From Methanohalophilus portucalensis (GTDB taxonomy: Archaea > Halobacteriota > Methanosarcinia > Methanosarcinales > Methanosarcinaceae): a stretch of 64,000 bases of DNA. This document shows, piece after piece, positions 13,359 through 27,347 of the stretch. The translations under genes were made by a program, and so were the position numbers. The notes beneath the pieces were generated by a model. The model had not been told where the DNA came from, ran no database searches, and was given only the letters and a program-made list of their open reading frames with translations. Location of the stretch: the NCBI RefSeq assembly GCF_002761295.1, contig NZ_CP017881.1, forward strand, positions 124,001 through 188,000. The letters are read 5' to 3'. How positions within the stretch are numbered: position 1 is the stretch's first letter; each line of letters begins with the position of its first letter.

Positions 13359-13910
13359 TTACAGGAGGCCCATATTGTCCAGCTGTTGTCTTACTACCTC
13401 TACTCCTTCTTCGCAGTTTTCCGGGGATTTGCCACCGGTAACCACCAGTTTTCCGGAACTGAATATCAGTACGACAACTTTTGGCTCATCGATCCTGTAA
13501 ACGAGTCCCGGGAACTGTTCAGGTTCATATTCGATATTCTCAAGACCGAGTCCGATTGCGATTGCATTAAGGTTGAGTACAGCTTTGAGGTCAGCGGAGG
13601 CGACAATGTTCTGTACGGTGATATCCGGTTTTTCAAGGGTATCTATGCCAATGCCGTTGAGTTTTTTGGCCATGTCCGCAATTACTGTGTGTACATCATC
13701 TACGTTTTTGGCACCTGTACAGACCACTTTCCCCGATGTGAAAACAAGAAATGCCGCCTTTGGGTTTGATACGCGGTATACGAGACCGGGGAATTTCTGC
13801 TTGTTATATTCTGCTCCTTCAAATTCAGCTTCGATCTTTGTAAGGTCGAATTCCTCGGCAAGTTTGGTGGAAGCTACCACATTTTCTATTTTAATGTTAT
13901 AATCTGTCAT
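13359..13910 (-). CDS. tbp: TATA-box-binding protein
   Basis: A 183-aa protein made of two similar halves, each with the TBP pattern: [10 protein letters not shown] / [10 protein letters not shown], then FPGLVYRV / FPGLVYRI and [12 protein letters not shown] / [12 protein letters not shown]. This is the complete saddle-shaped archaeal TBP that recruits TFB and RNA polymerase to promoters. The length is usual for archaea. Start ATG lies behind TATA-like TATATAAAC about 40-50 bp upstream. Confidence 0.98.
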
Positions 13911-14005: not shown

Positions 14006-15106
14006 TTATTCTGCCTTCCGCAGACCTTTGATAACAGCATCATACTTGCTTTTGACTCTCTCTATAAGGCCACCTTCCAGGTTACGATGGCTTGGGACAA
14101 GGATATCCGCTTCCCTTCCGATTTCCTCTCCTGCAGTGTTTGTTTCATAATCCGGGGCAATCAGTATTCCATCTTTTGAAACACCGATATGCAGATCTTT
14201 AACAATGCGTGCCACCATCTCGGTTTCCGGGGTGGCCCTGGCACTTATGGTCATGGCTCTTGATCGGTATTCATTCTTTAGTTCCTCGAGCAGCTCCAGG
14301 GTTTCCTTTACCCTGGCCGGATCTCCCTCGCTTTTTAGTATATTGACGGCTTCAGCAAGATCGTCAAATGTAGTGGATCCGACTTCGATAATCTCTCCTG
14401 AATAATGCTTTTCTACCTCTTCCTTATATCCCCGGGAAATAACCATTTTGTAAACCGTATCAAGGGTCTGACGTTCTTCCTCGGTGGGATTATAAGCATC
14501 TACCATGCGGTAATCTTTGATTCCACACATCTGTGCCAGGGATTCATGCATTGGGGTAAATCCTACAAACCTGCGTCCAAGCCAGCGGTCAAGTCCTTCT
14601 TTGCCACTTTGTTGTTTTGAAAGTTCTATCATCTTGTTGCGGATAAGTTCGGGTTTATTGTCCTCAAGACCGAAATAATCTGCAAAAAGAGGGGTGGTGG
14701 AGAGTAGTTTTGTCCTGCCTTGGGGAGTGCTTTCAATAAATCCCCGATCTTGTAATTCCCGGATATGATCATATGCCTTGTTGCCGCGCATATCTACAAT
14801 ATCCGATTGTACTACAGGCTGATGATAGGCTATCATGGAAAGGGTGCGTAGCATGGGAGAATTCAGCTCCCGGGGTGCAAAGGGACGGATTATATCAGAA
14901 TACTTTGATCTGACCTGCATGACATATCTTTCACCCAGGTCCACGATCTCCAGCCCTGCTTCCCTTTCTTCATATTCCCGGATTAGGGTTTCTACAATTT
15001 TTGTGACCTGTTTTTTATCTTTGTCAAGTATCTTTTGCAGCTTTTGTATCTCAACTGCACTGCCTGCTGCAAAAAGTGCAGCTTCAACAATTTCCCTGTC
15101 GGACAT
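14006..15106 (-). CDS. scpB: ScpB, condensin kleisin-associated subunit, with long C-terminal extension
   Basis: The first 170 or so residues match ScpB: two winged-helix modules with RPFAPRELNSPMLRTLSMIAYHQPVVQSDI and IRELQDRGFIESTPQGRTKLLSTTPLFADYFGL. ScpB pairs with ScpA and SMC to form the prokaryotic condensin that compacts and separates chromosomes. At 366 aa it is nearly twice the usual bacterial size; the C-terminal 190 residues (from about 175) contain a predicted alpha-helical stretch and a region with MTISARATPETEMVARIVKDL that I cannot assign. It follows scpA by 18 bp with AAGGGG upstream of ATG. Confidence 0.88.
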   Translation of the reverse strand: MSDREIVEAALFAAGSAVEIQKLQKILDKDKKQVTKIVETLIREYEEREAGLEIVDLGERYVMQVRSKYSDIIRPFAPRELNSPMLRTLSMIAYHQPVVQSDIVDMRGNKAYDHIRELQDRGFIESTPQGRTKLLSTTPLFADYFGLEDNKPELIRNKMIELSKQQSGKEGLDRWLGRRFVGFTPMHESLAQMCGIKDYRMVDAYNPTEEERQTLDTVYKMVISRGYKEEVEKHYSGEIIEVGSTTFDDLAEAVNILKSEGDPARVKETLELLEELKNEYRSRAMTISARATPETEMVARIVKDLHIGVSKDGILIAPDYETNTAGEEIGREADILVPSHRNLEGGLIERVKSKYDAVIKGLRKAE

Positions 15107-15124
15107 TTTTCAAACCAACCCCTT

Positions 15125-15943
15125 TCAAACAGGCTGCTCTTTATTTCCATAAGAGTATATATACAATTCTCCGAAGAGTTCATCCTGTCTCAAACAGATT
15201 TTCCTCTGGGAAGCCATGAAAAGGAGGGATAGGTAAGTCATTACCCTTTCTGAACGGGAGGGTATAGGATCTGTGATCTCAGTAAAACTGACCTTTTCTT
15301 TTCCCTGCAGAATCTCTTCAATTATTTCTTCCAGGTCTTCGACACGCCCCTTTATGTCTTCCTCATGAGCAATACCAAGCACATCTTCAGTGGTAGGCTC
15401 CTCTTCCATGTGGAGGACACGTTTTTGTCGCCTCTGGGTCCTTCTGGATTCAACATTTTCTGCCTTTTTCAATTCGTTTATAAGTTCCTGCAGGGTCACA
15501 GGTCTTGTAGCAGCGCGGCGAATAGGCAATTTGGGTACGGGGTAGTCTTCTTCATTCTGGAATTCGAGATCATCATCAGGTATATCATCATCGGGTTCTT
15601 CATCTTCTTCCTGTATGATACCTGTGGATTTCATTCTGAGGAGAATGGAAGCATAAAGCAGTGTTCTGCCTGAGATCCTGAGATCCATTATCTTCATTTC
15701 TTCTATTTTTTCCAGGAATTTATCCGTAATCTCTACAATATCAATATCCCAGGGATTGATACTTTCACTTTTTGCAAGGTTTACGAGGATCTCTACAGGT
15801 TCACAGAGCACATCATCTGATAATTCCAGTTCTTCTTCGTCAACACCCAGTTCCTTCAAGGTTTTCAGGAATTCAGGGTCAATACCCTGTCCCATGTTTT
15901 CCAGCAACGGGATTTCATCGTTTTTTACCGATGTACTGTTCAC
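15125..15943 (-). CDS. scpA: ScpA, condensin kleisin subunit
   Basis: A 272-aa kleisin. The N-terminal helices (PVEILVNLAKSESINPWDIDIVEITDKFL) match the SMC-neck binding part, the middle is acidic and low in complexity (EEDEEPDDDIPDDDLE), and the C-terminal winged helix (FMASQRKICLRQDELFGELYIY) binds the SMC head. ScpA bridges the two heads of an SMC dimer. Start GTG overlaps the smc stop as GTGA. Together with smc and scpB this forms a complete SMC-ScpAB operon. Confidence 0.92.
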   Translation of the reverse strand: MNSTSVKNDEIPLLENMGQGIDPEFLKTLKELGVDEEELELSDDVLCEPVEILVNLAKSESINPWDIDIVEITDKFLEKIEEMKIMDLRISGRTLLYASILLRMKSTGIIQEEDEEPDDDIPDDDLEFQNEEDYPVPKLPIRRAATRPVTLQELINELKKAENVESRRTQRRQKRVLHMEEEPTTEDVLGIAHEEDIKGRVEDLEEIIEEILQGKEKVSFTEITDPIPSRSERVMTYLSLLFMASQRKICLRQDELFGELYIYSYGNKEQPV

Positions 15944-18900
15944 CGTATTTTCACACCCGTAATACTTGTGATATTATCCTGCTGCATTGTTACACCTATT
16001 GTGCGCTCGGCAGCTTCTATCATCGGTTTTCTCAAAGAGACAACTATGAACTGGGCATTGCTTGCTGCCTTTTTAACACGTCTGGCAACCCTTTCAGCAT
16101 TTGCTCCGTCAAGGAACATATCGATCTCATCAAAAGCATAGAAAGGTGCGGGACGATATTGCTGGATAGCAAATAAAAATGCAAGGGCAGTGAGACTCTT
16201 TTCTCCGCCCGACATCGCTTCCAGTCGCTGCAGGGTTTTGTCCCGGGGCTGGGCTTTGAGGGTCATGCCTCCGGAGAAAGGGTCTTCCTCATTGTCCAGT
16301 ACAAGTTCCCCGACACCATCGGAAAGCTCATTGAAGATTTCCTTGAATGCATCATTGATGCCATTATAGGTCTCCATGAATGTCTCTTTTTTAAGGTTAT
16401 CATACTGGTCGATACGATCCAGGATCTGCTCTCTTTCATTGAACAGGATTGCCCTGCGGCTTTTGAGATCAACAATTCTCTGCTCCACTTCCTCATATTC
16501 ATCGATTGCCCGCATATTCACAGGTTCCAGGGCTTCCATTGCCTTTTCAATCGAAGTTATCCTTGTACGCACGGTTTCGTAACCCGGGACTTCATCAGTC
16601 TCTTCAAGGCCGCGACGTGCGATCTCTTCGCGGAGCTGTTCAATTTGTTCCTTCACGGCATCCAGTGTGGCTTCAAGTGCCATTTTCTGGTTCTCTGCCT
16701 TCTCATAGCGGCTCTTGACCCTATCAACTTCATCACGTTGGGTTGAGTAGGCCATTTCCTTATTCTCTCTTTCTCCCTGAAGCTCGCGAAGTTCACCTGT
16801 GAGTTCTTCTTCACGTTGTTTCTTTTCTTCCAGTTCACTTTCCAGGGAAGTGATCTTATTCTTGAGTTCTTCTATACGCTCTTTTAATGTGCCCTTTTTC
16901 TCATCCATCTGGGCGATTTGTTCCCGATTTTGTTCCATTTTCTCGGTTGCGTATTTTTTATCGAGTTCAAGAGCGTTGATCTGTCCGTCGATATCCCTTA
17001 TTCTTCCGTCCAGGCGGCGCAGTTCCTCATCAAGGGATTCTGCCTGCTTATTGAGCTCGGGAATTTCCGAATCGGCGAGTTTTTCCTCGATCTGCGTTAT
17101 GTTCTGTTGCAGGGATTGTTCCCTTTCTTCCAGATGCTCTTTCTTCTCAACGGTCTCATTCATCTCCGTTCGCATCTGCTGGCGTTCTTCCTCGATCTGC
17201 TTGAGTTCCTCATCTTTGCTATTGAGCAACTTTTCAAGAGTCTCTCCGCGATTACCAATCTCCTCGAATTGCATCTGTTTGCGTGCGATCTCGTTCTCAT
17301 ACTGCTGGATTTCCTTGTTGGTGTTTGAAATATGCCCCTCGGTAGTATCCAGTTTATTGATCGCATTGCTTCTGCGTGATTCCAGTTTGGTAAGTTCTTC
17401 GGATATCCTGACAAGTTTATCTTTTTCAGATGCTGCAAATGACAGGCCGGACTTGCGCTGGGAGCCACCGCTCATTGCCCCGCTTTTTTCAACGATCTCA
17501 CCTTCCAGCGTTACCATACGCAGCCCGCCCATCAGTTTTCGGGCGTTTTCAAGGGTGTCAACAACAAGGGTGTCCCGGAATACATACCAGAAGGCTGCTT
17601 CGAACTTCGGGTCAAAATCTATGAGATCAATAGCATACCCGATTACACCTTCCCTGTCGGAGAGGTTTTTGTAGGGCCTGCGTGCTTCCATCTTATTCAG
17701 GGGCAGGAAGGTTGCCCTGCCTGATCTCTGGCGTTTCAGGTAAGCAATCGCCCGGGAAGCATCTTCGTCCGTATCCACCACGACAGCCTGCATTCGCCCC
17801 CCTGCAGCGATTCCCAGGGCGGTTGAATATTTCTGGTTTACTTTTCCCAGCTCTGCTATGGTGCCATAAATACCGGGCAGGCCATGTTTGTCTTTTTCCT
17901 TGATTACCGCGTCTACTGCCCTGGAATACCTGCTTGTGTCCTCTGCTGCCCTCACACGGGCTTCAAGCATTGCATAGTCCTGTTGTTTGCTGCGTATGTC
18001 ACTTTCCAGATCACTGACAACCTTTTTTATCTGAGAACGATTGCTTTCCAGGTCATCAAGGTCTTTTGTCAACCCTTCTATCTTTTCGTTGAGTTTGTCA
18101 ATATCATACTGGACGGATTTGGTATCGCTTTCAGAGGACTTGGCCTTCTCCTTTGCCTGCCTGATCTCATCTTCTATTTCTGCTACATCTGAAGATTTGC
18201 GACGCAGGGAATCCAGCAGCCTGTCCTCGTTACGCATGAGCTCGTTTTTCTGGGTTTTTAGCTGTTCCAGTTCGTCCTTATTTGCAGAAAGTTCGTCCCT
18301 TGTTCGCGCAAATTTTTCATCCACATCGGCGATTTTGCTCTGCAGTAACATCCTCTGGGTACGTTTTTCAGAAATTTCCGATTGCAGGGTTTCCTTCTGG
18401 AAACTGTGTTCCTTAATCTTTTCTTCGATGCCATCTACCTTGCCCTTTGATTCATCGATTTCCAGGAAAAACCTGCGTCTTGCGGCATCGATCTCATCGA
18501 TTTCCTGACCTGCATATTCAATACGATCGCTGCATCCCGAGATTTCTCCACGAATCTCTTCAATTCGCCTTTTTACCTCGATCTGCTCATCTTCGCCCAT
18601 CTTCTGGATGCGCTGGTTAAGTAAGCGTAATTCTTCTTCCCTTTGTTCCAGGACATCTTTTTTCTGTTTAAGTTCTGAGGAGATTTCTTCCAATTTTTCC
18701 TGCTGGGCGTCGTATTCCTGACCGACTCCTTCAAGTTCGGTTTTTGCATCCTTGAGTTTAGAAAGCAGCACGAAACCCTCAAACTTCATCTTTTCTTCCT
18801 TGAGGGACTGGTATTTGACAGCCTGGTCACGTTCTCCCTGAAGCTTTTCCTTTTGCTTGTCCACTTCATCTATCAGGATATCTGCCCGTTCAATGCGCTC

Positions 18901-19461
18901 CCTTACAACTTCAAGTTCATTGAGTGCTCTCTCCTTCTTATTGTCAAACTCTGCTACCCCGGCAATCTCATCTATGATCTTGCGTCGCTCCCCGGCGGTC
19001 ATTGTGATGATTCTTGTGACGTCTCCCTGCATTACGACATTGTATCCTTCGGGTGTGACCCTTGCCTTTGCAAGATAATTATGTACATCACCAAGACTTA
19101 CCGATTTGCCGTTGAAGTAGAAATAGCTGTAGTAACCGCTGTCTGTACTACGCACCTTCCGGCTAATCACAACTTCATCGTTGTCAACAGGAAGTTCCCT
19201 GTCCTTGTTATCAAAATAGATGGTAACCTGGGCATTGTCCGGATTTTTGCTTTTTTCCCCGTTATATATGAGGTCGGTAAGTTTTTCCGCTCTCAATGTG
19301 CGGGAGCTGGACAATCCCAGGACAAAAAGTATACCATCAATTATATTGGATTTTCCACTTCCGTTGGGGCCTGAAATAGTTGTGAAATCATCAAAAAAAG
19401 GGATTTTTACTTTTTTCCCGAATGATTTGAAATTCAGAAATTCTATCTTTTTTATATACAC
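15940..19461 (-). CDS. smc: SMC chromosome segregation ATPase
   Basis: A full-length 1173-aa SMC. Walker A GPNGSGKSN at residues 31-39, long coiled coil, hinge domain around 515-640 (GIYGTIAELGKVNQKYSTALGIAAGGRM and onward), a second coiled coil, ABC signature MSGGEKS at 1083-1089 and Walker B FYAFDEID at about 1105-1112. It dimerises at the hinge and, with ScpA and ScpB, entraps DNA. GTG start after GAGGATTGGC. It is preceded by a 237-aa coiled-coil gene with an 18-bp gap and overlaps scpA by four bases. Expression is probably driven from the promoter in front of the coiled-coil gene. Confidence 0.98.
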   Translation of the reverse strand: MYIKKIEFLNFKSFGKKVKIPFFDDFTTISGPNGSGKSNIIDGILFVLGLSSSRTLRAEKLTDLIYNGEKSKNPDNAQVTIYFDNKDRELPVDNDEVVISRKVRSTDSGYYSYFYFNGKSVSLGDVHNYLAKARVTPEGYNVVMQGDVTRIITMTAGERRKIIDEIAGVAEFDNKKERALNELEVVRERIERADILIDEVDKQKEKLQGERDQAVKYQSLKEEKMKFEGFVLLSKLKDAKTELEGVGQEYDAQQEKLEEISSELKQKKDVLEQREEELRLLNQRIQKMGEDEQIEVKRRIEEIRGEISGCSDRIEYAGQEIDEIDAARRRFFLEIDESKGKVDGIEEKIKEHSFQKETLQSEISEKRTQRMLLQSKIADVDEKFARTRDELSANKDELEQLKTQKNELMRNEDRLLDSLRRKSSDVAEIEDEIRQAKEKAKSSESDTKSVQYDIDKLNEKIEGLTKDLDDLESNRSQIKKVVSDLESDIRSKQQDYAMLEARVRAAEDTSRYSRAVDAVIKEKDKHGLPGIYGTIAELGKVNQKYSTALGIAAGGRMQAVVVDTDEDASRAIAYLKRQRSGRATFLPLNKMEARRPYKNLSDREGVIGYAIDLIDFDPKFEAAFWYVFRDTLVVDTLENARKLMGGLRMVTLEGEIVEKSGAMSGGSQRKSGLSFAASEKDKLVRISEELTKLESRRSNAINKLDTTEGHISNTNKEIQQYENEIARKQMQFEEIGNRGETLEKLLNSKDEELKQIEEERQQMRTEMNETVEKKEHLEEREQSLQQNITQIEEKLADSEIPELNKQAESLDEELRRLDGRIRDIDGQINALELDKKYATEKMEQNREQIAQMDEKKGTLKERIEELKNKITSLESELEEKKQREEELTGELRELQGERENKEMAYSTQRDEVDRVKSRYEKAENQKMALEATLDAVKEQIEQLREEIARRGLEETDEVPGYETVRTRITSIEKAMEALEPVNMRAIDEYEEVEQRIVDLKSRRAILFNEREQILDRIDQYDNLKKETFMETYNGINDAFKEIFNELSDGVGELVLDNEEDPFSGGMTLKAQPRDKTLQRLEAMSGGEKSLTALAFLFAIQQYRPAPFYAFDEIDMFLDGANAERVARRVKKAASNAQFIVVSLRKPMIEAAERTIGVTMQQDNITSITGVKIR

Positions 19462-19479
19462 GCCAATCCTCTTTGGGCT

Positions 19480-20193
19480 TTAGAACGATTTCTTCTTCCT
19501 GACGATTATTTCAGAATCCTCATCTTTGTTTTCGACAGTTTCGTATTCACATTCACTTTTATTTTCCAGAGGTCCCTTATCACCGGCAATTATGTATTCA
19601 CAATTCTCGTTCTGGGTTTCTGGCTTGATGGTCTTTTCCACTTTGCGATTCTCACTTTCAGCAACGATGTACTCATCTTTTTCCTCTTCAGAAACCTCAT
19701 TTTCCTGATTTTTCTCAGAAGGCATCATTTTATCGACATCCCTGATCTGGAAATGCATACGAGGTTTTCTTTTTTGTTCGGGGGAAGACCGGGATCTCTC
19801 AGGGGTATCGTTACTGGTTTCTGCAGGTTGGGTTACAGGCTCCTTTTCCTCGTTATAAGCATCCGGACTGGCTGTTTCTTCTTCATATTTGCTCCATGCA
19901 TCGGACTCCCTTTCACCGGGTTGCTGTTTGTTTGCCTGTTCCATTTCCCGGATACGCGATTTCTGATCCAGGAGTTCCTCAAGGATTCCATTTATGTTTG
20001 TAGAAATTTCCTTGACCTGTTGCTCAAGTTCGACCAGCCTCTTGTTTATATCCATATCATTTCTCAATTCTTCCCGCAGTTCTGTTATAATAGAACTCTT
20101 GAGGTTTGTTTTGATATCGGATATTTCCTCTTCTTTGTTCCTGATCTGCTTTTCAAGACGTTCAATAATTAAATCTCTCTGCCCGGATTCCAT
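19480..20193 (-). CDS. Coiled-coil protein of the smc operon, function unknown
   Basis: A 237-aa highly charged protein. Residues 1-90 form a predicted coiled coil (LEKQIRNKEEEISDIKTNL, VELEQQVKEISTNINGILEEL); the rest is disordered and acidic. The C-terminal 65 residues hold a degenerate repeat: EYIVAE, EYIIAG, EYETVE and SEIIVR, each followed by charged residues, ending in KKKSF. GAGG lies 8 nt before ATG. It directly precedes smc (18 bp) and owns the promoter of that operon, so it is likely a partner or regulator of condensin. The family name is not known to me. Confidence 0.75.
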   Translation of the reverse strand: MESGQRDLIIERLEKQIRNKEEEISDIKTNLKSSIITELREELRNDMDINKRLVELEQQVKEISTNINGILEELLDQKSRIREMEQANKQQPGERESDAWSKYEEETASPDAYNEEKEPVTQPAETSNDTPERSRSSPEQKRKPRMHFQIRDVDKMMPSEKNQENEVSEEEKDEYIVAESENRKVEKTIKPETQNENCEYIIAGDKGPLENKSECEYETVENKDEDSEIIVRKKKSF

Positions 20194-20240
20194 CCAATTC
20201 CTCGCAAAACGTTCATTCCCTCAATATGAATATGATTTAT

Positions 20241-20277
20241 TTATTCTTATAAATATTCTATTTAAATTATTCTTATA
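20241..20277. repeat. Direct repeat in the smc operon promoter region
   Basis: TTATTCTTATA occurs at 20241-20251 and again at 20267-20277, a 26-bp period. On the minus strand these lie in the promoter region of the coiled-coil/smc operon, where TTTATAAG could serve as TATA box. The region is AT-rich, so chance is possible. Confidence 0.35.
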
Positions 20278-20282
20278 TGCTT

Positions 20283-22952
20283 TCATTGCGCAATAATGGA
20301 AGATATATTTGTCGTGGGATCTTTCTGGACTTCAAATACATTATCAGCCGAATCGATAAGGGTTTCATCGTGGGATACTATCAGTATCTGGCCGACTCCC
20401 ATGTCCCTCATGAGATCTATTAACTTTAAAAGCTGGTGCACATGTCCCCTGTCCAGGAACACAGTGGGTTCATCCATGATCAGAGGGGGCATTTCATTAC
20501 GGTATTCCCCGCCGGCCAGTCCTTCTGAAAGCAACCTGTAAATAGCACATCTTAAAACAAGGTTAAAGATCGCCCGCTCTCCACCGCTCAACAATTTGGG
20601 TTCCAGTGGAGTCCCATCCTTTTCATAGATGGTAAGCTCATAATCAGTATCCAGCTGTATATGTGAGTAGGCATTATTGGTGTACATAAAGGAAAAGATT
20701 TCATTGAGCAATCTGTCCAGTGCATCAATATTGCGTGTACGCAGGTCTGCACGCAATCTCATGTACATATCTTCCAGGCTTTCTACATCACTTTTTACAG
20801 CTTTGAGATACTTTTCCCGGTTATTGAATACTTTTAGTTTTTCCTGCAACGCTTTTTTCCTTTTGAGGTTGGTTTCGATTTGCCCTATTTCCTTTAAAAG
20901 ACCCGTTTTTTGTTTGTTCTTTTCTTCAATATCCCCGATTATTTTTTGATAAGCTTGCTGGAACTCATGCAATTTCTTCTCCAGTTTTTCGATATTTTCC
21001 TTGCCAAGTTCGTTTTCAAGTTGCTTTTTATTCCTTTTTTTCTCTGCTATCTGTTCATCAATGAAACGCACATTTTCCTGAATATCCGCAATACCTGTTT
21101 TCAGGTGTTGATGATCACTCTGCATTTGTGTATGATCATGTCTTATTTTTATCAGGTATTTTGCACTTTCAAGATTTTCTTTTATTTTATTATGATGCTC
21201 AGTGGCAGTGTTTACAGTTTGCTGTATTTCTTTTATTTCATCTTCGGCTCTTTTAATGTCTTTTTCAATTTTCCCTATCCTTTCTGAAAATTCCTGTTTT
21301 TTCTTTTCATCCTCCTGGTTTTGTTTCTTCAATTCCTCATTGTAGGAGGTCAGGTTTTCCTGTTTTTGATTTATAAGCAATTGCTTCTGTCTTTTTTCAT
21401 CGACCTGTTTTTTTATTTTGCCTGCCTCTTTTAAGGTGGCAATTTTCTCTTCAGCCCTTTGTGTATCCTGGGTAAGTTTTCCCAATTGCTCCTCAAGCTC
21501 TTTTCTCTGTAATTCTTCCTCCTTTGTATCATTGGCAATGGTCGAGCCCTGCAGGTCCTGTCCACATGTGGGGCAGGCTCCTTTTTCCAGCAGGTTTCTA
21601 TGTTCTGTGAGTGTTTTTGAGATCTGGTCTAGCCGGGTTCTGACTTCTTTTTCTTTTCCATGGAGATGACGTTGCTTGTTCAAAAGCAGGTCTTCCAATT
21701 CCTCCAGATTGTCCAGTTTCCCCTGGTCAAAACCCATTGATTGGGCATTTTCAAGGAGTTTCCCGATCTCGTCTTCCAGCACCGAATACTCCTGGTTGAT
21801 TTCCTCTATTTCCTTTAACCGACCCTTTTCCTGAGTGGATCTTTTTTTGATTGCTTCTTCCAGTGCACTGAGATTTTGTTTTGTTTCAGTCAGGCCTTTC
21901 TGTGAATTTTCCCTTTCCTGTAGTTTCAGGCCCTGTTTGTTTTTTATTTGACTGATTTTTTCATAGGCATCCCGCTCTTCTTTTTCTGTACGGGCAGTGA
22001 AATTGTCCACATCTGTGGTTTCGTCAAGTCCGAAATAATCATATAATTCCTGTATTTTGTTTTCAATTTCCAGAATGGATTTGTGGAGCCTGTCTCCCTC
22101 CTTCCTTTTACTTTCCAGGGATGTGAGAGCTTCTTTTTTCCGTTTTTCCAGTCCGCTTATTCCCCTGTCCAGTTCATCGATCTGCTTTTGGGTTCTGGTA
22201 TATTGCTCGATGTGCTGGCGATCCTTTTCGATACGAGTGCTGGTTCTGTCTCGCATCGTCTCCAGATTCGCAACTTCCTGTTGCAATTGCTTCAAATCCG
22301 TATTCAACTGATTTTTCCTGGCAACGGGTTTGGTTGCATCGATTGCTTCAATCTCTTCCTGCTGGTCCTTAATCCGGGCATGAGTTTCAGTGATATGTCT
22401 CCCCACACCGGTCCTGGCACTTTTTGCCCTCTCCCGGTACTCTTCCAGCCTGCCTATTTGCAAAAGGTCATCTATCATCCTCTGCCTGTCTTTTTTGCGG
22501 GCATTGATGAGAACGTCAATATCTCCCTGCCTGATATATACACAGTTCTTATAGGCTTCCTCATCCATGCGCAGCAGATTTCGAATGGACTCATACGTCT
22601 GTGTGGCCTGGTTTACAACTACTTCCCCGTCTATCTCCAGATAAGATCTGGTGGTGGAGGCTTTGCCTGTTTCGGGATTGTTGCGAAATTCCTGGATTGC
22701 AGCATACTCCTGTCCCTTGTGCTCAAATTCGAGATTAATTGCAGCTTCTTCACATCCCTTGCGCACCAGGTCTGCAAGTACGAAATCTTTTGGTATACCC
22801 CTGTGACCGAACAGTCCCACAAAACAGGCTTCAAGAAGGCTGGATTTTCCACTTCCGTTGACTCCCGAAACCACAGTTACCCCATCGTTGAAATCAATCT
22901 CGAGATCACTGTAACTGCGTATGTTTTTCACTTTAAGCCGCTTAAATCTCAA
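20283..22952 (-). CDS. rad50: Rad50 DNA repair ATPase
   Basis: An 889-aa SMC-like protein with Walker A GVNGSGKSS at 30-38, long coiled coils broken by the zinc hook CPTCG (about residue 459), signature LLSGGERA and Walker B PLIMDEPTVFLD near the C-terminus. With Mre11 it senses and processes DNA double-strand breaks. The start is TTG, overlapping the mre11 stop (TTGA), with GGGGGAT upstream. Coupled translation with mre11 fits the known 2:2 complex. The length is normal for archaea. Confidence 0.97.
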   Translation of the reverse strand: MRFKRLKVKNIRSYSDLEIDFNDGVTVVSGVNGSGKSSLLEACFVGLFGHRGIPKDFVLADLVRKGCEEAAINLEFEHKGQEYAAIQEFRNNPETGKASTTRSYLEIDGEVVVNQATQTYESIRNLLRMDEEAYKNCVYIRQGDIDVLINARKKDRQRMIDDLLQIGRLEEYRERAKSARTGVGRHITETHARIKDQQEEIEAIDATKPVARKNQLNTDLKQLQQEVANLETMRDRTSTRIEKDRQHIEQYTRTQKQIDELDRGISGLEKRKKEALTSLESKRKEGDRLHKSILEIENKIQELYDYFGLDETTDVDNFTARTEKEERDAYEKISQIKNKQGLKLQERENSQKGLTETKQNLSALEEAIKKRSTQEKGRLKEIEEINQEYSVLEDEIGKLLENAQSMGFDQGKLDNLEELEDLLLNKQRHLHGKEKEVRTRLDQISKTLTEHRNLLEKGACPTCGQDLQGSTIANDTKEEELQRKELEEQLGKLTQDTQRAEEKIATLKEAGKIKKQVDEKRQKQLLINQKQENLTSYNEELKKQNQEDEKKKQEFSERIGKIEKDIKRAEDEIKEIQQTVNTATEHHNKIKENLESAKYLIKIRHDHTQMQSDHQHLKTGIADIQENVRFIDEQIAEKKRNKKQLENELGKENIEKLEKKLHEFQQAYQKIIGDIEEKNKQKTGLLKEIGQIETNLKRKKALQEKLKVFNNREKYLKAVKSDVESLEDMYMRLRADLRTRNIDALDRLLNEIFSFMYTNNAYSHIQLDTDYELTIYEKDGTPLEPKLLSGGERAIFNLVLRCAIYRLLSEGLAGGEYRNEMPPLIMDEPTVFLDRGHVHQLLKLIDLMRDMGVGQILIVSHDETLIDSADNVFEVQKDPTTNISSIIAQ

Positions 22953-24304
22953 AGATAATCCCCCAGATTGTACTGTCGTGGAACCTTTGTTTTCTGTGGT
23001 TTTTGCTCAACATCCTTGTCCACTGCATCGGTTTCCTTTTTCTTCTTCCCTGGAGGCCGGGATTTTTTATCTTCTCCCTTTTCAGCGAAAACAGGTTCCT
23101 CCTTTTGGGATGGCTCTTCTTTCCGGTTATTTTCAACTTGTTTTTGCCGGTGAATGTTTAAAGGAATTTCCTGGCTGAAATCCGTTTGTTCTATCATCGT
23201 TGCTATAGAAGCTTCTGTTTTGTGGTCGATGGTGGTTTTAGGTATGGACAGGTCCCTTATGATTTCATCAATCAACAGGCCTGCATCTGTAAGGTCCATT
23301 TTCTTGATTTCTTCCCGGGCAGCAATGTCGGGATCTGAAAATATTATTTCAGTTTGATTTTCAGTCTCGTCAGGGCGATCGTTTCGCAAATCGGATATGC
23401 GACTGACCAGTACTCCCTGCTTATCAAGAAATTCTTCTATCTCACTGTAGGCAATATCTACCTGTGAATTGCCTTTTAATTCAATAAAAACGACTTTCTC
23501 CTTCACATCATATTCGCGGATCGTATTGAAAATATCACGGTATGCATCATTCTCATCCTTGATGTCCACGGCTATGTGCAAAAATTCTCTCGTATTTATC
23601 TGTCGCCTGCCTATATCAATGTCATTTTGTGAAACAGTGATTACATTATAGCCTCTGGGTTCTTCCTCTGCAGCACTGTTCCTTTCTGTGCTTCCACAGT
23701 AGGTAACCCATGTATTTTCCACCTTTGTTTTTTCATACTTGTGATAATCCCCGAGCAATATTGCATCCAGTGCACAGGGGAATGAATGGATTACTTCAGC
23801 CACATCCCATTCTCCAAAAGGAAATGGTTTCATTAGCTGATGCATTACAAGGATATTATGTGTAGCTTCCTGGGTGGTTTCAAAAACGGAGTAGTCAAAA
23901 GACTGTATCTTTGGTCGGGGGATACTGTCTATACCATAAATCGCAATATTGCCTGCCATAAAAGGGCTGTTGCCCAGGCGCCTGACCAGACGCATGTTTT
24001 CCAGCAGATCTAACCACTGTGTTTGCTGTTTGCTTTCATGATTACCCACAATTCCCAGCAGGGGGATTTCGGCTACTTTTAATTTAGACATTATCTGAAT
24101 TGTTTCGAGAATGTCTTCCAGGGTGGGATTGCGGGAATCGAACAGGTCTCCGGCATGAATTACAGCATCGACTTTCATGTTAATGGCATCATCAATTACC
24201 TTTTCAAAGGCTTCCAGAAAATCCCGCCGGCGTACATCGCTGTGATATTGCCGATAACCAATATGTGTATCAGCAGTATGTATTAACCTGATTTCTCTAT
24301 CCAT
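22949..24304 (-). CDS. mre11: Mre11 nuclease
   Basis: A 451-aa calcineurin-like phosphoesterase with the metal-binding motifs HTADTHIG, HAGDLFD and GNHE, then LLGDYHKYE and a CGSTERNS segment typical of Mre11. The C-terminal 110 residues are charged and low in complexity (KEEPSQKEEPVFAEK, PPGKKKKE), ending in a short motif that could bind Rad50 or DNA. It nicks and trims broken DNA ends with Rad50. ATG start after GGGATG. It is the first gene of the mre11-rad50 pair and is transcribed away from the phosphoglucose isomerase gene. Confidence 0.96.
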   Translation of the reverse strand: MDREIRLIHTADTHIGYRQYHSDVRRRDFLEAFEKVIDDAINMKVDAVIHAGDLFDSRNPTLEDILETIQIMSKLKVAEIPLLGIVGNHESKQQTQWLDLLENMRLVRRLGNSPFMAGNIAIYGIDSIPRPKIQSFDYSVFETTQEATHNILVMHQLMKPFPFGEWDVAEVIHSFPCALDAILLGDYHKYEKTKVENTWVTYCGSTERNSAAEEEPRGYNVITVSQNDIDIGRRQINTREFLHIAVDIKDENDAYRDIFNTIREYDVKEKVVFIELKGNSQVDIAYSEIEEFLDKQGVLVSRISDLRNDRPDETENQTEIIFSDPDIAAREEIKKMDLTDAGLLIDEIIRDLSIPKTTIDHKTEASIATMIEQTDFSQEIPLNIHRQKQVENNRKEEPSQKEEPVFAEKGEDKKSRPPGKKKKETDAVDKDVEQKPQKTKVPRQYNLGDYL

Positions 24305-25979: not shown

Positions 25980-27347
25980 TTAGTTTTTCTGGAATTGGCT
26001 TCCTATTATTTCATCCAGCTTATTGAGGAACTCGTTTCTGCCCGTTGCAGGTATTGTCGCTCCTGCTGCAATGTCATGCCCTCCTCCTGCGCCGTTCACG
26101 GAGCCGGCAGCATCTGACATTGCCTGTGATAGGTTGAGTCCCTTCCTGATAAGGTCCTGTGTTCCCCGTGCGGATACTTTCACACCATCATCTGAATCCG
26201 CAAAGGCAATTATAGGCTTGTCCCGTCTCCCTGCAGAAGTAATACTCATACCGGCGATAATTCCTACAATCGTTTCTTTGATCTTGTTTCCTGCATCAAA
26301 ATATTGTATGTGGTCCAGTTGTGTAATGCCATTTTCTTTCACAAGTTTTAGGCCGTTGACAAGATTTTGCCTGTGTTCTCCAAGAAGCTTCTTTGCATCC
26401 TCGTAAGCCTTTCCCCGTTCTCCCATGCATACGGCCAGTCCGGTCTCTGCATGGTCATAGCGTGCGGTGGCATTGAGCAGTGTGGAAAATTCGGAAGCAT
26501 CCCGCATTTCCGTTCCTTCACGTTCATTGAGCAGGACATAAACTTCCCCGATCAATCTCTCAACCTTAAAGGGTTGAAGCCCGGATTTGATACAATGTTG
26601 CATGACCCCGGATATTATTCTCTGTTTTTCTGCAGATTCAAGATCAATCCAGCGTCTCCATCGTTCATCGCCCCCAAACCGGATATTCATGTCATGGAGA
26701 AAGCCTATGCATGCATCCTCGTCACCTGACAGGCCCGGCAGGAATGGATCAGAAGAAAATTGGAGCAGTTTATAGACCGGGCGGGTTTGTTTGCCAAAAA
26801 GGGTGATATCTTTTTCATAACTCAGATGGCCGTTTTTCACTCCTTCTTCAAGTAGCAGGCGGTTAACACCTGTCAAATGCCCTTTTTTGAGGTGTTGCAT
26901 GTCTCCGATAGCACCAACCATGGCTATGTCAACCAGATCTTTATTCTGGCCAATCTCATTTGCAAGGATGTAGGTTGTTCCGGAGCCGCTTAATTGATAT
27001 GATCCGTTAGCACCGAAAAGATGGGGATTGAGGTGATATTTCCCTTCTCCGCGAGGCTGGTGATGATCTGAAACTATTGCATTGATACCATTTGCATTTA
27101 TGCTGTCCAGCATGCCGCTTCCCAGATCTGTGAAGATTGCAAGTTGCGGATTTATGTTTGCGATGTCTTCTATGATATTGTCATCCAGCTGTTTTACAAA
27201 CCTCATTTCATAATTGATACCTGCACGTTGCAGGGCTTTACATATTATTCCGGCAGAAGTCAGGCCGTCTGCGTCAATGTGGGATACTACATATACAGAT
27301 TCGTGTTTCTGTATTTCTGTATTACATTCTCTTGCATGTTCTTTCAT
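25980..27347 (-). CDS. Archaeal RecJ / GAN-type DHH phosphoesterase
   Basis: A 455-aa DHH-family nuclease with the motifs SHIDADGLTSA, FTDLGSG and VSDHHQP, and a DHHA1 domain ending GAGGGHDIAAGATIP. Archaeal proteins of this group act as single-strand exonucleases, and in Thermococcales the homologue GAN associates with the GINS-CMG replication machinery. The DHH motif and the glycine-rich RNA/DNA-binding loop are intact, so it should be active. Its stop lies 2 bp from the end of the convergent nrpRII gene. Confidence 0.9.
   Translation of the reverse strand: MKEHARECNTEIQKHESVYVVSHIDADGLTSAGIICKALQRAGINYEMRFVKQLDDNIIEDIANINPQLAIFTDLGSGMLDSINANGINAIVSDHHQPRGEGKYHLNPHLFGANGSYQLSGSGTTYILANEIGQNKDLVDIAMVGAIGDMQHLKKGHLTGVNRLLLEEGVKNGHLSYEKDITLFGKQTRPVYKLLQFSSDPFLPGLSGDEDACIGFLHDMNIRFGGDERWRRWIDLESAEKQRIISGVMQHCIKSGLQPFKVERLIGEVYVLLNEREGTEMRDASEFSTLLNATARYDHAETGLAVCMGERGKAYEDAKKLLGEHRQNLVNGLKLVKENGITQLDHIQYFDAGNKIKETIVGIIAGMSITSAGRRDKPIIAFADSDDGVKVSARGTQDLIRKGLNLSQAMSDAAGSVNGAGGGHDIAAGATIPATGRNEFLNKLDEIIGSQFQKN

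Follow-up and report, generated by a model that had tools for sequence, protein, structure and literature searches.

What does a short coiled-coil gene do directly in front of the genes of archaeal condensin? The question is raised by a locus of Methanohalophilus portucalensis, whose genome forms one 2.08-Mb contig and from which we analysed a stretch of 64,000 nucleotides (the window). Its minus strand carries, in order, mre11, rad50, a 237-aa coiled-coil gene (CC), smc, scpA and scpB. The accessible text of PMC9764264 describes the physiological roles of archaeal SMC proteins as very little known and reports that deletion of smc costs domain boundaries in Hi-C maps; the accessible part of PMC7055376 reports that six archaeal ScpA/ScpB pairs (the Methanosalsum zhilinae pair included) showed no interaction, that haloarchaea are without scpB, and that archaeal SMC-ScpA was concluded to be binary. 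The six failed pairs and the haloarchaea without scpB speak for the need of a factor such as CC. A gene locked to smc throughout the phylum, and commoner there than scpB, offers a concrete and testable candidate for what loads archaeal condensin and lets it function without a kite subunit.

Gene order and the coiled-coil protein in the window

The order, strand and coordinates that an earlier note had given for the cluster from mre11 to scpB were correct, as judged from open reading frames and profile matches (Table 1). Genes overlap by 4 nt at mre11/rad50 and at smc/scpA, gaps of 18 nt separate CC from smc as well as scpA from scpB, and smc, scpA and scpB adjoin one another as in an SMC-ScpAB operon. 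The stretch between rad50 and CC is A+T-rich and, by eye, holds two TATA-like sequences (TTTAAATAG and TTTATAAG) and an RBS-like GAGG located 6 nt ahead of the CC ATG. Because of this gap spacing and of the TATA-like and RBS-like sequences ahead of it, CC is plausibly the first gene of the smc transcription unit. Note that sigma-70 and terminator scans of the DNA, using models unfit for archaea, gave near-chance counts.

Table 1. Features of the locus, with positions numbered from the first letter of the window
Feature	Position	Strand	Basis
scpB, long form, 366 aa	14006-15106	-	PF04079, 7e-43
scpA, kleisin, 272 aa	15125-15943	-	PF02616, 3.5e-19
smc, 1173 aa	15940-19461	-	TIGR02169, 1340 bits (cut-off 729)
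CC gene, 237 aa, DUF7518-family coiled-coil protein	19480-20193	-	PF24362
Acidic-hydrophobic C-terminal end of CC, DSEIIVRKKKSF	19483..19518	-	alignment
Short motif copy 2, EYIIA(GD)	19585..19599	-	alignment and motif search
Short motif copy 1, EYIVA(ES)	19660..19674	-	alignment and motif search
Predicted long helix/coiled coil, CC residues 2-89	19927..20190	-	model, alignment and heptads
rad50-CC intergenic stretch, 89 nt	20194..20282	-	TATA-like and RBS-like sequence, by eye
TATA-like stretch TTTATAAG	20253-20246		by eye
TATA-like stretch TTTAAATAG	20266-20258		by eye
rad50, 889 aa	20283-22952	-	PRK02224, 5e-246, under cut-off
mre11, 451 aa	22949-24304	-	NCBIfam Mre11_Halo, 3e-124, under the model's own cut-off
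TATA-binding protein gene	13359-13910	-	PF00352, 3e-61
RecJ-like DHH/DHH-CID/DHHA1 protein	25980-27347	-	
Hjc-type resolvase-like protein, 168 aa	27372-27878	-	by eye, no Pfam match

Several genes in and around the cluster deserve a remark of their own. The gene of a TATA-binding protein lies directly downstream of scpB, and beyond mre11 the RecJ-like and Hjc-like genes are further repair-type genes. The Mre11 protein ends in QYNLGDYL, which we take to resemble a PCNA-binding PIP box, and this ending is kept as Q(Y/H)NLGD(Y/F)(L/F) in all 15 relative loci with a full-length Mre11 match. In the long ScpB, the Pfam ScpB domain spans residues 6-149, and the ~200 extra residues (~150-366) have no Pfam or PDB match. 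The open frame at the ScpB match is about 346-431 aa long in f1, f2, f5 and f6, whereas in the remaining families most such frames have 154-240 aa, so that the long form seems peculiar to the class of the window. The AlphaFold2 model of this long ScpB alone reached a pLDDT of 37.

The CC protein passes the cut-off of a single Pfam family, DUF7518 (PF24362; 37.8 bits against a cut-off of 27). In the open-access literature searched, no paper was found for DUF7518 by name, and no title or abstract among those listed describes an smc-adjacent coiled-coil protein in archaea. Against four congeners, its dN/dS is 0.08-0.14, similar to the 0.02-0.22 of the neighbour genes, which shows that CC is a genuine protein and that purifying selection acts on it. 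A single-sequence AlphaFold2 model predicts one helix over residues 2-89 (pLDDT mostly >90), a short helix at 92-107 and disorder after about residue 107. The long helix comprises the N-terminal 'RDLIIERLEKQ' helix and the core 'RLVELEQQVKEISTNINGILEELLDQKSRI', and the heptad pattern is clean in residues 48-89, with hydrophobics at 83% of the a/d positions versus 13% of the others. CC showed no match to PF04079 (ScpB) at E<=1, none to a winged helix and none to PF02616 (kleisin ScpA); a HEAT-repeat solenoid of the HAWK type was not found either, as the model gives helices and disorder and no repeat family matched. Comparison with the PDB returned generic coiled coils only (best 6.8e-5, GCN4 fusions). 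We also considered CC as a fragment of SMC or Rad50 and rejected it, since no frame of SMC or Rad50 came below an E-value of 1e-4 when searched with the CC profile described below.

Conservation of the coiled-coil gene beside smc

Searching close relatives with the CC of the window covered 40 genomes (its own included), of which 35 gave a match, and the other 34 loci were fetched. CC lies directly upstream of smc on the same strand in all 34 (located by tblastn in 33 and by the profile in the last, L066). The earlier note had seen in the 237-aa gene a candidate partner of condensin, one ground for giving this up being an absence of the gene beside smc in close relatives; no such absence was seen, and the proposal gains support from these 34 loci and from the phylum-wide link to smc. 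Its further suggestion, that the grouping of both SMC systems reflects coordinated genome maintenance, finds no general support. Fifteen of the 34 loci have mre11-rad50 ahead of CC-smc on the same strand, as would suit a CC that coordinates SMC with Mre11-Rad50. However, all 15 belong to the window's own family (15/21 loci inside it versus 0/13 outside, some of the latter on short contigs), rad50 being upstream of CC in two further genomes of that family. Elsewhere among the loci examined CC-smc stands without mre11-rad50, and within the window 89 nt part rad50 from CC. The side-by-side position of the two SMC systems is thus a local feature of part of the window's family, and a coordinating role of CC between them appears very improbable.

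Beyond the close relatives, we collected 90 further smc regions, of which 50 have a PF24362 match (30 of the haloarchaeal type and 20 of other types) and 40 come from SMC genomes without one, and ran a CC profile, iterated from 27 seeds, on the 4715 reading frames of the resulting 124 loci. All 106 matches at E<1e-4 lie directly upstream of smc on its strand, and none was found elsewhere among these frames, although the coiled coils of SMC and Rad50 are in the set. Note that the 106/124 proportion refers to loci that are not a random draw, since 34 were picked by a CC match, 50 by PF24362 and 40 by SMC without PF24362. The 50 loci with a PF24362 match (L073-L102, L143-L162) all proved to hold the smc-upstream CC gene, and 22 of the 40 without such a match also carry CC, Archaeoglobus-like genomes included; in the latter the CC-smc gap is often 1-4 nt, which suggests translational coupling. 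The PF24362 model is confined to core and linker as they occur in the short haloarchaeal form; the N-terminal helix and many lineages escape it.

To place CC in the phylum as a whole, an alignment of 46 rows (A1) was used as a profile at E<=0.001 over 295 genomes, a single tool-drawn sample with a requested completeness of at least 85%. CC was found in 236 of these genomes (163 with PF24362 alone, so that Pfam misses much of the family), the SMC hinge in 259, ScpA in 260 and ScpB in 138. Absence of CC is defined by this threshold and may be overcounted, a divergent CC-like frame of family f15 (L115, L116) falling under it. In all 91 genomes with paired places for the two genes, CC stands just before smc on the same strand, at 1517-2132 nt from the hinge within smc. 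CC and SMC occur together in 234 genomes, CC only in 2, SMC only in 25 and neither in 34 (Fisher 4e-26, with genomes that are non-independent). Of the two genomes with CC only, G189 was discarded as a case of CC without SMC, because a contig break explains it (CC at C93:3278-3637, SMC N-terminus at C93:3636). The other, G051, is a true exception, having an 80-aa CC and no match to smc, scpA or scpB; this CC (L299, G051:C4:28092-28319) is without the N-terminal helix and retains the IIICD end.

Among 20 genomes taken from named records, 16 have an SMC hinge, and in these 16 the region upstream of smc was read. Haloferax gibbonsii, Methanosarcina sp. 2.H.T.1A.6, Methanoculleus chikugoensis, Methanoperedenaceae HGW-1, Archaeoglobales INS_M23_B45 and Archaeoglobaceae S145_38 carry CC in this region, the last two being already among the 295 (identical places for G237/G326 and G164/G331). 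CC was not found upstream of smc in Methanothrix Bin_020, nor beside smc in nine sampled archaea that by name fall outside the phylum, i.e., Methanocaldococcus SG1, Thermococci B88_G9, Thorarchaeota HM4_FB6, Nitrosocaldus, Nitrosopumilus (short upstream stretch) and four Thermoplasmatota, including Methanomassiliicoccus and Poseidoniales. In a Methanothrix-like genus (g25; L108, L109, L140) the place upstream of smc is taken by another conserved gene, whose product of ~157 aa has a signal-peptide-like N-terminus. Haloferax volcanii has a PF24362 match; its smc is HVO_0689 according to the accessible parts of PMC11276520 and PMC10869688, and the open literature searched gave no mention of HVO_0688, HVO_0690 or HVO_0691. 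Since the family has members in Haloferax and Methanosarcina, a tractable laboratory archaeon is available in which to tag the protein and delete its gene. Altogether, CC is an old family fixed beside smc.

CC members combine a coiled coil with a linker that is disordered and acidic and with a short (D/E)-Φ-I-Φ-A/C motif. Long members start with an amphipathic helix (RD-x-LIERLE-x-KL-x-EKE), which haloarchaeal members are without, and nearly all have the core coiled coil R-x-x-x-LE-x-x-V-x-EL ... GL-x-x-EL. An acidic and variable linker follows, and then 1-3 copies of (D/E)-Phi-I-Phi-(A/C)-(D/E) (e.g., EYIIAES), often at the extreme C-terminus. Alternative ends are DDIIVA in haloarchaea and DEIIICD in Archaeoglobus-like genomes, and the end of the window's CC, DSEIIVRKKKSF, is the counterpart of the DDEDVVI.. 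and DDIIVA ends of relatives. With regexes fitted by eye after the sequences had been inspected, the looser motif was found in 70 members of a non-redundant set of 77, against a mean of 6.6 and a maximum of 15 in shuffles, and the stricter one in 62 of 77, against a mean of 3.1 and a maximum of 10; the strict motif falls within the last 30 residues in 38/77 members versus 10/1368 other frames of at least 100 aa. It is absent from all three members of family f14, which we take to be Methanocella-like, and the family evolves fast, the mean column identity of the alignment being 15%.

EYI[IV]A occurs in five places of the window's genome. CC accounts for two of them; a third has no real frame, a fourth falls within a frame of 706 aa, and the fifth is in the linker of a 353-aa uncharacterised protein on the minus strand (L301:822-1880; G000:C1:3006-4064). 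This protein, which by eye resembles an Mrr-type nuclease fold, carries EEYIIADD in its linker as CC does. Among the 17 of its frames recovered out of 30 loci, EYI[IV]A is kept in 8 and missing from 9; the 8 belong to the genome of the window and to its congeners. A wider EYI[IV]A network beyond CC is therefore unproven, as the motif of the 353-aa protein is kept within the genus only.

Could CC accompany smc in the operon and yet serve another purpose, for example as a further protein of the nucleoid or of cell architecture or in the expression of smc, without ever touching SMC? Its retention in G051 after the loss of smc would agree with this, coiled-coil proteins have many roles, and operon leaders can be kept for the sake of expression. 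However, the link persists in 106 of the 124 loci and over many families while other neighbours changed, and both dN/dS and motif conservation point to a function of the protein itself. We regard a separate job as possible but rather doubtful.

Coiled-coil protein and ScpB

The distribution of CC was compared with that of ScpB, since CC might replace this kite subunit as a lineage-specific third subunit, SMC-ScpA being always accompanied by one or the other. Indeed, 258 of the 259 SMC genomes have CC or ScpB (one ScpB match, in G242 at 8.5e-4, was discounted as under cut-off), and the sole CC-less SMC genome without ScpB, G063, is a fragmented MAG. ScpB is present in 24/25 CC-less SMC genomes versus 111/234 CC-bearing ones (Fisher 8e-7 by genome). 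The 25 CC-less genomes comprise 11 of the 12 of family f6, which we take to be Methanothrix-like (a label that also rests on the named Methanothrix record), and 14 in f11, f12, f15, f17, f20, f21 and f29. At the family level, CC occurs in 14/14 ScpB-less SMC families and ScpB in 7/7 CC-less families (Fisher 0.0074; 0.017 when the divergent frame of f15 is taken for CC).

However, genomes and families share ancestry, and this complementarity is suggestive only because few independent losses underlie it. In addition, nine families and one f6 genome carry both genes, CC is without the winged-helix fold, and archaeal ScpB may not belong to the complex at all, as indicated in the accessible part of PMC7055376. 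That CC stands in for ScpB is thus an unlikely reading.

A putative accessory protein of SMC-ScpA

From genomic context and protein anatomy, CC is probably, with real room for doubt, a dedicated accessory protein of archaeal SMC-ScpA in this phylum. The coiled coil would form a parallel dimer or dock on the SMC arm or neck, and would thereby be held on the SMC-ScpA ring. The linker and the (D/E)-Phi-I-Phi-A/C motif would form a flexible tether gripping a second partner. This partner may be a loader or a nucleoid protein, but also another SMC dimer or, in lineages that have it, ScpB. CC might thus load, couple or regulate archaeal condensin, ScpB-less lineages included. Because published pull-downs gave archaeal ScpA without ScpB binding, CC may be considered the best genomic candidate for the missing accessory subunit of archaeal SMC-ScpA, though a candidate only.

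Gene neighbourhood alone is no proof of a complex. Against an accessory role stand the CC of G051 without smc, the short motif missing from the Methanocella-like members and the fast-evolving sequence; moreover, 25 of the 259 SMC genomes have no CC, and therefore SMC can work without it. A comparison of 111 SMC sequences from CC-bearing and 28 from CC-less genomes revealed, over the first ~640 aa (head, arm and hinge) and at the thresholds used, no position tracking the presence of CC in either direction. A bolder version, which we put forward tentatively and consider less likely to be right than wrong by a wide margin, would make CC a new class of SMC accessory protein (not kleisin, kite or HAWK), i.e., a tethering coiled coil dating from the phylum ancestor that took over the role of ScpB in haloarchaea as well as in most of the Methanomicrobia and accounts for the loading or regulation of 'binary' SMC-ScpA.

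Known systems offer partial parallels to an accessory CC. Acidic C-terminal tips of SSB and FtsZ recruit partners, and CC recalls them in its putative oligomeric body, disordered linker and short acidic-hydrophobic end (e.g., ...DDIIVA-COOH); unlike them, many CC members also carry internal copies of the motif, and the likeness is an analogy only. The kite subunits (ScpB, MukE, Nse1/3) are, like CC, encoded by a small gene of the SMC operon, and the distribution of CC is partly complementary to that of ScpB; however, a kite has two winged-helix domains, whereas the model of CC gives one helix plus disorder. In haloarchaea, the gene of RdfA likewise adjoins an SMC-superfamily gene (Sph), for 42 of the 54 copies that 24 genomes carry, according to the accessible part of PMC10869688. 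The SMC-like gene beside that of RdfA belongs to a different family from the smc beside CC, and there adjacency meant shared function, since rod shape requires both RdfA and the adjacent SMC-like gene, Sph3 (PMC10869688, same part).
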